Source: Desulfobacterales bacterium (GTDB lineage Bacteria; Desulfobacterota; Desulfobacteria; Desulfobacterales; JAIPEE01). Taken from it: 64,000 nucleotides of DNA. The position numbers were made by a program, and so were the translations under genes. Below, piece after piece: positions 12,409 through 16,730 of this stretch. The stretch is taken from positions 62,001 through 126,000 of the forward strand of contig JAIPEE010000005.1 of the NCBI GenBank assembly GCA_021737275.1. The letters run 5' to 3'. Position 1 is the first letter of the stretch; the number at the start of each line of letters is the position of its first letter. A model generated the notes under the pieces. It was not told the DNA's origin. It ran no database searches and saw only the letters and a program-made list of their open reading frames with translations.

Positions 12409-12747
12409 TTACGCAAGACTTTTTACCCTCTCCATCGGACTGATAATATCAGTCAGTCTGACACCGAATTTTTCATTCACCACAACAACTTCACCCTTGG
12501 CCACCAGCTTTCTGTTTATATAAATTTCAAGCGGTTCGCCGGCGAGTTTGTTCAGCGTAACAATTGATCCCTGCCCAAGTTGCAGCAGATCATAAACCAG
12601 CATTTTTGTTTTACCCAGCTCCACTGAAAGCTCCAGGGGGATTTCCAGAATAAAATCAAGATCGCGTTCAGATTGTTCAGCCGCTGCTTCAAGTTCAGCT
12701 TCCTCTTTTGATACTTCTGCTTTTTCTGTATTATTATTTTCAGCCAT
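12409..12747 (-). CDS. fliN: Flagellar motor switch protein FliN
   Basis: A 112-residue protein from the ATG at 12747. An acidic N-terminal tail (about 1-35) precedes the SpoA domain (about 38-110; LEIPLELSVELGKTKM, then LNKLAGEPLEIYINRKLVAKGEVVVV). It forms the lower C-ring with FliM and is a docking site for FliH and the export ATPase. This start is chosen because GGAGAAGGG lies just upstream and because ATGGCTGA overlaps the fliM stop by 8 bp. A longer reading from 12813 would run deep into fliM. Confidence 0.95.
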   Translation of the reverse strand: MAENNNTEKAEVSKEEAELEAAAEQSERDLDFILEIPLELSVELGKTKMLVYDLLQLGQGSIVTLNKLAGEPLEIYINRKLVAKGEVVVVNEKFGVRLTDIISPMERVKSLA

Positions 12748-13732
12748 AACCCTTCTCCATATGTAATTTACTTTGCACCCTGAATGCCTGGAAACCACGC
12801 TGAACACCGGCAAAGCCCTTGAATTTTTCTACGTTTTCAATACAGGCGATAAGCGGTTTTTCAGCATCCTGATCAAGCTGTATAACATCGCCCACCTTCA
12901 AATGCATCAGGCGTTCCCCGCTAATTTCAGTTGACCCGAGCTGGGCCCCGAAAGTTACTGAGGATTCAAGAATAATCTCTTTGACCCGTTTGATCCATGT
13001 ATAGTCTTTTTCAAGCCGGTCACTCTGAAACCCTGATGAAAGCTTGCTGCGAATAGGTTCTATCATTGCATAGGGAATACAAACCGTAATAGAACCTGCA
13101 CTCTGATCCAGTTCAACTTCAAACTTGGATACCATAACCAGATCGGTCGGCAATACAATTGTTGCGAACTGTGGATTTACTTCAGACCTTACATAATGTG
13201 TCTCAATTTTTTCAACCGGTGCCCAGGCCCTTTGGATATCCTTCAGACATTCAGCCACCACCTTATCGATAATTACATTTTCAATAGCTGTAAATTCCCG
13301 ACCCTCAATCTTGGCTTGACCGGCACCGGTTCCGCCAAGAAATGTCTCAAGCAGATTAAACACCAGCCGGCTTTCAAGAACCAGCAAGGCATGGCCCCTG
13401 AATGGCTCCATACGATAAACATGCAGGCTTGTCGGAACAGGAAGGGATCGCCCGAATTCTGAAAACTTCAATGTATTTACAGATTCCGGACTGATATCCA
13501 GTGTTACCCTGAGCATATTGGAAAGGCTCTCTTTCATGCCGCCGGCAATTCGCTGGTTTATCAGTTCAAGTGTCGGCATTCGACCCCTTACAACTCTGTC
13601 CTGTGCATCAAAGTTGTAAACGGAGACCTCTTCAGGCTCCTGTTCACTTGTATCAGCCTCTGCCTCTACCTTTCCCGTGCTTAAACCGGAAAGTAAACTG
13701 TCAACTTCGTCCTGTGAAAGTATTTCATTCAT
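12740..13732 (-). CDS. fliM: Flagellar motor switch protein FliM
   Basis: A 330-residue switch protein. The N-terminal MNEILSQDEVDSLLSG carries the family's CheY-P binding motif (residues 4-14). A linker leads to the CheC-like middle domain (about 50-240, with GGTGAGQ and IENVIIDKVV) and a C-terminal SpoA domain (about 255-325). It sits in the C-ring, receives CheY-P and sets the rotation sense. It overlaps fliN by 8 bp and follows fliL by 9 bp. Its N-terminal motif closely resembles the repeat unit of the 612-residue protein at 1231-3069. Confidence 0.97.
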   Translation of the reverse strand: MNEILSQDEVDSLLSGLSTGKVEAEADTSEQEPEEVSVYNFDAQDRVVRGRMPTLELINQRIAGGMKESLSNMLRVTLDISPESVNTLKFSEFGRSLPVPTSLHVYRMEPFRGHALLVLESRLVFNLLETFLGGTGAGQAKIEGREFTAIENVIIDKVVAECLKDIQRAWAPVEKIETHYVRSEVNPQFATIVLPTDLVMVSKFEVELDQSAGSITVCIPYAMIEPIRSKLSSGFQSDRLEKDYTWIKRVKEIILESSVTFGAQLGSTEISGERLMHLKVGDVIQLDQDAEKPLIACIENVEKFKGFAGVQRGFQAFRVQSKLHMEKGYG

Positions 13733-13741
13733 AATATCAAA

Positions 13742-14239
13742 TTATTGAATAACAAACTCGGTAAAGTAAAGGTTACTAATCTTCCCGCCCCTTATTAGCT
13801 GGTTAATTCTGAGAATCAGCTCATTTTTCAGGGCAATTTTATCTTCTATCGTCTGTATCTCGTTGATACTTTTGCTGCTTAAATGAATAAGGACGGCGTC
13901 TCTCAATTGGGGCAGGCGCGCCTCAAGCTCAGCCTTGATCTCTTCACCAAAATATTCCATTTCCACCTTGGTTTTAAGGTAGCGTTTTCCACCCGGATCG
14001 GCAAGATTTACGACGAAAAAATCAAGGGGATATATCTTACCGTATTCTACCACCTCTTCTTCGGCAGATGCTTCTGCAGTATCTGTTTCAGCTTCGTTAT
14101 CACCGGACAGCATCGTCCAGCCGACAAACCCGCCGGCACCTAAGAGCACTACCACCAGAATGATGATAATCAGCTTAAGAGGAGATTTTTTAGGTTTTTC
14201 GCCTTCTGCTCCTTCTTCTTTTTTTTCTTCTTCAACCAT
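13742..14239 (-). CDS. fliL: Flagellar basal body-associated protein FliL
   Basis: A 165-residue single-pass membrane protein. An acidic and Lys-rich cytoplasmic tail (1-22) precedes a membrane helix (about 23-45), an acidic linker, and the periplasmic FliL domain (about 70-165: YPLDFFVVNLADPGGKRYLK, then LRDAVLIHLSSKSINEI and YFTEFVIQ). FliL surrounds or stabilises stator units. It lies between motB and fliM in the motA operon. A second protein in the window, at 1231-3069, carries a diverged copy of this domain. Confidence 0.95.
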   Translation of the reverse strand: MVEEEKKEEGAEGEKPKKSPLKLIIIILVVVLLGAGGFVGWTMLSGDNEAETDTAEASAEEEVVEYGKIYPLDFFVVNLADPGGKRYLKTKVEMEYFGEEIKAELEARLPQLRDAVLIHLSSKSINEIQTIEDKIALKNELILRINQLIRGGKISNLYFTEFVIQ

Positions 14240-14263: not shown

Positions 14264-14998
14264 TTAATGAGGCCGTTTTAAAACAAACTCTACTCTTCTG
14301 TTTTTTGACCTGTTCCCTTCGGTATCATTCGGAAACCTTGGTAACATATCGCCATAGCCGCCGGCTGCCAGTCGCCCGGGATCAATCCCAAGGCTATCGG
14401 TAAAGTAGTAAAGGACGCTGAGCGCACGGTATACTGAAAGATCCCAGTTGGACCCGAAAGGTCCGCCGCGTATGGGAACATTATCAGTATGGCCCATAAT
14501 CAGAATATCATTGGATGCATATTTAATTAACATTCCCAGTGCATCAAGCGTATGCAGCCGGTCGGGGGTGATAGATGCATTTCCCGGCTGAAACAGATTA
14601 TCTGCTTCAAGTGATATGACAACCCCCCGCTCATCATCGGTTACGTCAATAATATATTTTAAATTTTCCAGCTCATCCTGCCACTCAAGGCTTTCAATAC
14701 TTTTTAAAAAATCAATCGCCTCTTCCAGCCTCTGGTTACTGGAGATCATCACCGATCTTGAAAAAGTCTCACTTGCAAAAATATCAGCAAACTTGCCGGA
14801 AATATCCCTGTATTCAAGGGGACCGCTTGTCGGCTGTTTCTGTTTAAAGACTTTTTTATACTCCTTTGTATCCATTGATTTCATGGTCAAAAGCAATACG
14901 AAAAATGTCAGCAGCAACATAACCAAATCACCGAATGTCACCATCCATGCATTGGGATCGGGTCCAAAATCTTCTTCGCCGCCTTTGTCTTTAGCCAT
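14264..14998 (-). CDS. motB: Stator protein MotB (PomB-like), canonical ion-binding Asp
   Basis: A 244-residue stator subunit. The single membrane helix (about 18-40) has WMVTFGDLVMLLLTFFVLLL with the ion-binding Asp at residue 24. A plug/linker region follows (about 41-120), then the OmpA-like peptidoglycan-binding domain (about 125-243; IMGHTDNVPIRG, RALSVLYYF, NRSKNRRVEFV). The TFGD...FFVLL pattern is closer to PomB than to E. coli MotB, but H+ or Na+ use cannot be decided by eye. It is the third gene after motA and the second MotB-like gene. Confidence 0.93.
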   Translation of the reverse strand: MAKDKGGEEDFGPDPNAWMVTFGDLVMLLLTFFVLLLTMKSMDTKEYKKVFKQKQPTSGPLEYRDISGKFADIFASETFSRSVMISSNQRLEEAIDFLKSIESLEWQDELENLKYIIDVTDDERGVVISLEADNLFQPGNASITPDRLHTLDALGMLIKYASNDILIMGHTDNVPIRGGPFGSNWDLSVYRALSVLYYFTDSLGIDPGRLAAGGYGDMLPRFPNDTEGNRSKNRRVEFVLKRPH

Positions 14999-15043: not shown

Positions 15044-15880
15044 TTACTCAAAAACCCTGAAGAAAAAGTTCTTAAAGGTAAAACCGCCTTCAGGCTTGCC
15101 CATAGACGGTTCAAGGTAGAACACAATATCAATTCTTTTATTATATGCCCGTGTTTCCTGCGTACTGTTGCTGTATTCAGGATGATATTTACCCCAACCA
15201 TATGCAGTCAAGCGATCTGCCGGTACATTATTTTTTGTTGTCAAATATTTTAATACATTTAATGCACGTATTGATGAAATCTCACGGTTCGTCATATATC
15301 GGTTCTCCGGCGGCATATTATCCGTATGACCGACAATCTCAACCGGAAGATCATTATTCAAAATCGTTTTACTCACTCTATCCAGCAATTCATCTGCTCC
15401 GGATTTTATTTCGGTATTTTCCCCTTCAAACAATTCACTGGCCGGAATACTGAATATCTTTTTTGTCTTTTCAACAATAATAGCGTAATCAACCGGCTTG
15501 ACAACCGTACCGGGCCTGTCAAAAAGGACTTCGGACGAGACTCTCAGTACGGTACCCCGCTGACTCGTCTTTATATAAAGATCCTTTGCGCCGGAAGTTT
15601 CCTCCTGGTAAAGATCTGTAAAATCAACCATTGAGGTCATCGCCTGTATGGTTGAAAGATCCAGGTTAACGCCATCTCCCTCGAGATTTGAAAATCCGCC
15701 GGAGAGGATCCCGAAGCTTTCCAGAAGAGATCCGAGAGCGGAAAGTTTTCTCTCCTCATCAACAACCGCAATGGCATTCAGCAGAATAAAAAACGCAAGA
15801 ATGATGATGAATAACGAAACAACCAGCATCGCATTCAGATCTACATCCCGTTCTGCGCCACCTCTCTTTTTTTTGCCCAC
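15044..15880 (-). CDS. MotB-like OmpA protein lacking the ion-binding Asp
   Basis: A 278-residue protein with the MotB layout: a short basic cytoplasmic tail, one membrane helix (about 16-38), a linker, and an OmpA-like domain (about 150-265; VEIVGHTDNMPPENR, RALNVLKYL, RAYNKRIDIVF). Aligning the helix on the shared FF pair places Ser22 (codon TCG) where MotB has its essential Asp. The segment reads LNAMLVVSLFIIILAFFILL, and acidic residues occur only before the helix (D12, D14) and after it. It probably cannot conduct ions alone. It may pair with MotB in a mixed stator or act as a peptidoglycan anchor. It sits directly between motA and motB. Confidence 0.85.
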   Translation of the reverse strand: MGKKKRGGAERDVDLNAMLVVSLFIIILAFFILLNAIAVVDEERKLSALGSLLESFGILSGGFSNLEGDGVNLDLSTIQAMTSMVDFTDLYQEETSGAKDLYIKTSQRGTVLRVSSEVLFDRPGTVVKPVDYAIIVEKTKKIFSIPASELFEGENTEIKSGADELLDRVSKTILNNDLPVEIVGHTDNMPPENRYMTNREISSIRALNVLKYLTTKNNVPADRLTAYGWGKYHPEYSNSTQETRAYNKRIDIVFYLEPSMGKPEGGFTFKNFFFRVFE

Positions 15881-15968: not shown

Positions 15969-16730
15969 TTAGTCGGATGCCGGACGCTGTTTTGGTGCAA
16001 CAAAAGAGACCAGCTTCTGTTCAAGGATCCTGGGGTTTTCCCCCTTTGTAAGAGATAAAACGCCCTCGATAATCATCTCCTTGACCAGGGTCTCTTCTTT
16101 ACTCCTGGTTTTGAGTTTTCCCGCAATAGGCATACAAATCATATTGGCCATTACAGATCCATAAAATGTTGTCAGCAATGCAACCGCCATAGCAGGGCCG
16201 ATGGAACTGGGATCATCCATGGATTGAAGCATCTGCACGAGGCCGATCAGGGTGCCAATCATACCCAGTGCAGGCGCAAATGTAGCCAGCGTCGTAAAAA
16301 TATCTGCCCCGAGCTTGTGGCGTTCGCTCAAATAGGTTACTTCCGTATCCATAATATCCTGTATGGCCTGGGGTTCAAGACCGTCAACAGCAAGCTGGAT
16401 ACCTTTCTGAAGAAATGTGTCATCAATTTCCTTTGCATCGGACTCAAGTGCCAGAATACCCTCACGACGTGCCTTGGAACCAAATTCCACGAACTGTTTG
16501 ATGATATCATCAACAGAAAGGGCTTTGGCAAAGAGCACATTCATACCGACACCAACGGTACCGAGGACCTCCTTAAGAGGATAATTGATCATCGTTACCC
16601 CGAGCGTACCACCGACAACAATGGCCAGTGAGGGAATATTGACAAATAACATGATGCTGCCGCCCATCAGGATAGCAGCGAGAACAAGACCGAATGCAGC
16701 GATAGTACCGACTAATGTTGCAATATCCAT
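15969..16730 (-). CDS. motA: Stator protein MotA (PomA-like)
   Basis: A 253-residue protein with four membrane helices (about 5-25, 30-50, 150-172, 182-205) and a cytoplasmic loop containing the conserved RREGILALE segment that contacts FliG. The third helix region FAPALGMIGTLIGLVQML is typical. Five MotA surround two MotB subunits in the stator. It is first in its operon, about 100 bp downstream of a near-perfect sigma-54 promoter. The short family form (about 250 residues) fits PomA and delta-proteobacterial MotA. Confidence 0.95.
   Translation of the reverse strand: MDIATLVGTIAAFGLVLAAILMGGSIMLFVNIPSLAIVVGGTLGVTMINYPLKEVLGTVGVGMNVLFAKALSVDDIIKQFVEFGSKARREGILALESDAKEIDDTFLQKGIQLAVDGLEPQAIQDIMDTEVTYLSERHKLGADIFTTLATFAPALGMIGTLIGLVQMLQSMDDPSSIGPAMAVALLTTFYGSVMANMICMPIAGKLKTRSKEETLVKEMIIEGVLSLTKGENPRILEQKLVSFVAPKQRPASD

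Follow-up and report, generated by a model that had tools for sequence, protein, structure and literature searches.

In the 5:2 rotary (turnstile) model of the flagellar stator, two equal MotB sites are used alternately, with 10 ions and 36-degree steps per turn, and these 10 ions set the upper torque limit (PMC9389320). More than one B-type subunit has been described elsewhere. In Aquifex aeolicus, the membrane regions of the two MotB proteins are 97% identical, with one residue different, and both proteins function as chimeras in Escherichia coli (PMC4525482). For the Myxococcus gliding motor AglRQS, the choice between a heterodimer and homodimers of the B-type subunits is undecided (PMC9389320). 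Here, a 64,000-nucleotide stretch of a Desulfobacterales genome (GCA_021737275.1, contig JAIPEE010000005.1, positions 62,001-126,000; the window) was analysed. Its flagellar operon encodes, between MotA and MotB, a second MotB-type protein without the ion-binding Asp, designated MotB'.

The motB' gene (window 15047-15880, - strand; supported by its open reading frame, Pfam and orthologues) starts with GTG, has AGGA upstream of the start codon and encodes 278 amino acids with the C-terminal end ...FTFKNFFFRVFE. The open reading frame that contains it spans 15044-15880 (- strand), and that of the neighbouring canonical motB (14267-14998, - strand; Pfam) spans 14264-14998. Once the two proteins were aligned on the FF of the membrane helix, Ser22 of MotB' (codon TCG, 15815-15817, read as cga on the + strand) coincided with Asp24 of MotB (codon GAT, 14927-14929, - strand). 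This replacement had been proposed in a first-pass annotation of the window, and it was confirmed by the codons, the FF anchor, MAFFT alignments and, where it covered the site, a canonical MotB profile. The annotation had also described MotA, an Asp-less MotB and a normal MotB in a row; this order was found to be correct, with fliL and fliM next. The cluster runs on the - strand as motA, motB', motB, fliL and fliM, separated by gaps of 88, 45, 24 and 9 nucleotides.

The assignment of MotB' to the MotB family was supported by predicted structure and by domain matches. The AlphaFold2 model, built from a 31-row alignment, placed a membrane helix at residues 15-39 (15764-15838, - strand) and, with lower confidence, a plug-type helix at residues 42-55 (15716-15757, - strand), followed by an OmpA fold. 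The mean predicted local distance difference test (pLDDT) score was 74.7; residues 21-30 averaged 94 and parts of the linker fell below 50. When the model was compared with the PDB by Foldseek, the best matches were the periplasmic domains of MotS and MotB. The OmpA-like peptidoglycan-binding domain (residues 150-247; 15140-15433, - strand; PF00691, E 4.9e-16) retains both GHTD and the Arg of SxxRA, in agreement with its earlier description as intact. Within the window pair, Pfam matched OmpA in both proteins and MotB_plug only in the canonical MotB; among relatives, MotB_plug was matched in 21/31 window-type and 22/24 type-II MotB' proteins, so the family assignment does not depend on the FF anchor alone. 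With a membrane helix followed by a plug helix, an OmpA-like domain and a place beside motA in a flagellar operon, the window protein is a MotB-type homologue in which the Asp required of an ion-carrying MotB is absent.

To place this residue among relatives, MotB' profiles were used to search genome contigs (23 loci), 389 genomes of the class and 395 of the phylum, and further stretches were fetched. All loci lay within one phylum and, having been found with MotB' profiles, they give numbers that describe this family rather than all tandem motB genes. The named relatives were mostly metagenome-assembled genomes of Desulfobacterales, together with the cultured Desulfatibacillum alkenivorans DSM 16219. 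Dropped before counting were same-gene duplicates, first copies without a readable site (L059, L103, L144, L192, L246) and single motB' genes at contig ends (L050, L056, L088, L095, L123, L145, L183/L191/L245); every fetched motB' without a downstream motB sits at a contig end. After removal of copies, 124 distinct tandem MotB pairs were obtained, 113 of them beside motA or fliL; in the stretches fetched for the other 11, neither gene was present.

Across the 113 operons, the first MotB carried S at the site in 70, G in 27, A in 10, D in three, T in two and N in one, and the second carried D in 113/113. One locus, L148, was then removed; its order is MotA-MotB-MotB, its two near-identical helices both bear Asp, and no FliL was present in the fetched stretch. 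The remaining 112 distinct MotA-MotB'-MotB(-FliL-FliM) operons gave S 70, G 27, A 10, T 2, N 1 and D 2 for the first copy and D in 112/112 for the second, in each of three MAFFT modes. Wherever Asp was absent the residue was small, and the Asp-less first copies span 37 numbered families and 63 genera. No D, E, K, R or H was present in the 19-residue membrane core of 110/113 first copies, and in the other three the Asp is at the site itself. The homologue alignment proposed in the first-pass annotation therefore returned Ser or another neutral residue in 110/112 first copies, and its phrase 'apparently non-conducting MotB-like protein' is supported by conservation on this scale. Judged from these sequences, an old second motB with a small neutral residue at the ion site and a strictly conserved membrane helix lies between motA and motB in many sulphate reducers and related bacteria.

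The site itself was aligned consistently. The FF-anchored script and the three MAFFT modes (112 operons) agreed on the residues, and the canonical MotB profile, which covered the site in 57/112 first copies, conflicted with the FF anchor in 0/57; a misalignment caused by the anchor was rejected on these grounds. Asp12 or Asp14 had been named as a residue that might instead lie inside the ion path. This was rejected, as the N-terminal 14 residues have a mean pairwise identity of 0.21 and the membrane core is uncharged in the 110/113 first copies.

The history of the pair was examined in a site-masked tree of 186 rows, in which one branch separated 93 first copies from 93 second copies with a support of 98 in the SH-like approximate likelihood ratio test (SH-aLRT; quick search). 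L148 was excluded from this tree, as were seven further loci (L015, L019, L061, L066, L079, L105 and L106) that are long-branched or copies of long-branched ones. An earlier tree that kept the long branches showed two changes of the MotB' label, and a thinned tree with the long rows removed placed MotB' on one side with a support of 89. Since first and second copies fall on two sides of one branch, the two genes appear to have stayed paired while the sampled families diverged, and the simplest reading is a single ancient tandem duplication with the gene order kept since. The 11 pairs with Asp in both copies and no nearby motA fall within the same split. The 186-row tree needs four unpolarised changes at the site between Asp and non-Asp, which fit either a single loss followed by restoration of Asp through gene conversion or repeated losses. 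Given the Asp-bearing homologues, the neutral residue is placed as a change on top of the older duplication. At L217-L221, L228-L232 and L250, both copies of a tandem motB pair bear Asp, and no motA was recognised within the 5-10 kb fetched.

One Asp-bearing first copy, at locus L235 (genome G492), is composite. Its membrane segment is 74% identical to that of its own MotB and 22-42% identical to those of five related MotB' proteins, whereas the periplasmic part shares 60-63% identity with three MotB' proteins from its family but 33% with its own MotB. In a genome assigned the same genus label, the residue at the site is Ala (L177/L256). The hybrid probably arose by gene conversion between the tandem copies. 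It indicates that the helix of MotB is able to take over from that of MotB', as would be expected if both hold equivalent places.

Selection on the parts of the two proteins was compared over 35 close pairs, which are not independent, as the ratio of uncorrected proportions of nonsynonymous and synonymous differences (pN/pS). For the membrane helix, this ratio was 0.131 in MotB' and 0.090 in MotB; for the plug stretch it was 0.253 and 0.382, and for the rest of the protein 0.363 and 0.353, respectively. The close pairs replaced an attempt to use rates (dN/dS) over distant pairs, which were saturated, with ratios of 0.4 to 1.0. Among window-type MotB' proteins, mean pairwise identity was 0.69 in the helix and 0.40 in the OmpA domain. 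A small site residue in a constrained helix is what a helix packed in the MotA ring would need, and not what a lipid-facing anchor helix would need.

In the periplasmic domain, the peptidoglycan-binding Arg was present in 20/46 MotB' versus 43/46 MotB proteins of the window subtype (type I), in 28/28 of both proteins in type II, and in 37 MotB' and 38 MotB proteins of the remaining 38 operons. In the window subtype, the relaxed part is thus the very part that a dedicated anchor would need. In L066/L019 (G008), the OmpA domain of MotB' lacks GHTD altogether and the membrane helix still reads SLFIIVLAFF. A further feature of the window subtype is an aromatic C-terminal tail, F.FK.F.F (residues 265-278; 15047-15088, - strand), which was found in 43/46 MotB' and 0/46 MotB proteins of type I operons, with F272 and F274 conserved in 31/31 window-type MotB' proteins; in the MotB of other operons it was found in 0/28 (type II) and 0/38 (remaining). 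The same kind of tail is present in some Asp-bearing first copies (L229, L231, L232).

MotB' is postulated to be a second B subunit of the stator, old and specialised, which no longer has an ion site but still occupies its place in the MotA ring. A mixed axle is suggested by the combination of one MotA gene in the flagellar operon with two B subunits, one of them silent: one MotB' and one MotB would form the two-helix axle within a single MotA pentamer (MotA5:MotB:MotB'). MotB would supply the sole ion-binding Asp, and the small residue of MotB' would act as a permanently neutral, protonated-like site that can move past the MotA interface; the plug and the periplasmic domain of MotB' would share in gating and anchoring. 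If such an axle turns, about five ion transits rather than ten would be expected per MotA turn. Placement of MotB' in the MotA ring, most probably paired with MotB in a heterodimer that has a single ion site, is given a probability of about 0.5. The broader proposal that a large part of the phylum has an obligately heteromeric stator, MotA5:MotB:MotB', in which one site is active and the other permanently neutral, with about five ions per turn and 72-degree steps, is more tentative and falls somewhat short of an even chance. A mixed stator and a dedicated peptidoglycan anchor were the two roles suggested in the first-pass annotation. The former gains support from the strictly conserved membrane helix, the conserved plug, the single flagellar-operon motA, the obligate pairing with MotB and the helix swap at L235; the latter loses support through the relaxed binding Arg of the window subtype, and a mere anchor gives no reason for the conservation of the helix.

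Several points weigh against the mixed axle. The structural evidence consists of single-chain predictions. In E. coli, loss of the MotB Asp abolishes motility and the mutants have been reported to be dominant, so a one-site axle may not turn in a standard stator; under some versions of the turnstile model, rotation could also be hindered by a site that is permanently neutral. Asp was found in 2/112 operon first copies and in all 11 tandem pairs outside the operon, which shows that two-site tandem pairs exist too. The first-pass annotation had expected such homologues to count against a non-conducting MotB', and they do exist, but the window protein is not thereby shown to conduct. The tally is not an unbiased census, because the loci were chosen by similarity to MotB' profiles. 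Finally, the evidence fits a heterodimer and two kinds of homodimeric axle equally. In the second case, MotB' would form its own non-conducting MotA5:MotB'2 units, serving as idle or braking stators or as a reserve of stator places and MotA that tunes torque. MotB' keeps the helix, the plug and the OmpA domain, in fact all but the ion site, and is encoded directly after motA; however, competition with working units for MotA would be expected, which leaves fixation across dozens of families less easily explained, and this arrangement is considered rather unlikely.

An accessory role near the stator but outside the MotA ring, as a scaffold or peptidoglycan anchor, would make MotB' a functional analogue of MotY or of MotE and MotK, the accessory periplasmic proteins that bind MotB2 in Cereibacter (PMC10954123). 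The intact OmpA domain in the window, the peptidoglycan residues kept in 28/28 type II MotB' proteins and the extra aromatic tail would suit such a role. It is nevertheless distinctly unlikely, given the frequent loss of the binding Arg in the window subtype, the missing GHTD in G008, a membrane helix almost as constrained as that of MotB, a site that is always small barring a few Asp cases, and the helix swap at L235. Conduction by another route, for instance through Ser22 with Na+ or through a residue outside the helix core, would leave MotB' as an ordinary second MotB. The PomA-like MotA makes Na+ coupling conceivable, and tandem MotB proteins with Asp in both copies occur in related families, but the absence of any charged core residue in 110/113 first copies, and the presence at the site of Gly or Ala, which offer no side-chain ion binding, in 37/112, make this very improbable. 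Least credible is a functionless, decaying duplicate. The lost ion site and the partly relaxed peptidoglycan site of the window subtype would be compatible with decay, which is, however, already contradicted by purifying selection (helix pN/pS 0.131), by open reading frames in 37 families and by the invariant gene order.

The other genes of the operon are MotA (15969-16730, - strand), whose best NCBIfam model is PomA, below its cut-off, FliL (13742-14239, - strand; PF03748) and FliM (12740-13732, - strand; PF02154). The host genome (4.26 Mb in 104 contigs) contains five genes of the MotA/ExbB family, one of which lies inside the flagellar operon. Outside this operon, at G000:C43:178271-179723 (L002, L156), a second, divergent pair of MotA-like and MotB-like genes was observed, the MotB-like helix being WSDLMMTMFIFF.

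A clade with one dead and one live MotB, both retained since an ancient duplication, offers a way to test in nature if the two sites are both required, how many ions are used per turn and whether asymmetry of the stator is functional. If the mixed axle is real, it would be a naturally half-loaded 5:2 rotary motor, akin to those heterodimeric ABC transporters in which one ATP site is dead, and the silent helix would have given way to an Asp-bearing helix in at least one lineage (L235). In a 2025 survey on the evolution of MotAB, B subunits were picked by proximity to MotA (PMC12505986). Caution is needed wherever the gene after motA is equated with the B subunit, as here that gene is the Asp-less one. 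The strings 'desulfo', 'tandem' and 'aspart' are absent from the text of PMC12505986. In the open PMC literature, which leaves out most subscription papers, no description of a stator operon with a conserved Asp-less MotB was found, and a conserved stator B subunit of this kind may be new.

Compared with known systems, MotB' shares with MotB and PomB of MotA5:MotB2 stators the single FF membrane helix, the plug, the OmpA-like domain and a gene near motA and fliL. It differs from them in having no ion-binding Asp, in the aromatic tail of the window subtype and in always being accompanied by a canonical MotB. Anchors of the MotY type are exported periplasmic proteins without a MotB membrane helix, whereas in MotB' a MotB-type helix is present and conserved. 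Among the closest solved folds is the periplasmic domain of Desulfovibrio vulgaris DVU_2228 (PDB 3KHN), a MotB-like OmpA domain with 27-28% identity; the entry holds the periplasmic part only, and this fragment was assigned neither to the first nor to the second copies. MotE and MotK of Cereibacter resemble MotB' as accessory proteins acting with MotB, but they are periplasmic, MotK has an AMIN-like domain, and they are not MotB paralogues (PMC10954123). The motA/motB1/motB2 genes of A. aeolicus (PMC4525482) match the window operon in having one motA followed by two motB genes; unlike those of Aquifex, the window helices differ strongly (SLFIIILAFF in MotB' versus DLVMLLLTFF in MotB), and that of MotB' lacks the Asp. 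The gliding motor AglRQS likewise combines one A-type with two different B-type subunits, but it is not encoded in a flagellar operon, and AglQ and AglS both keep the conserved aspartate (PMC9389320) that MotB' has lost.
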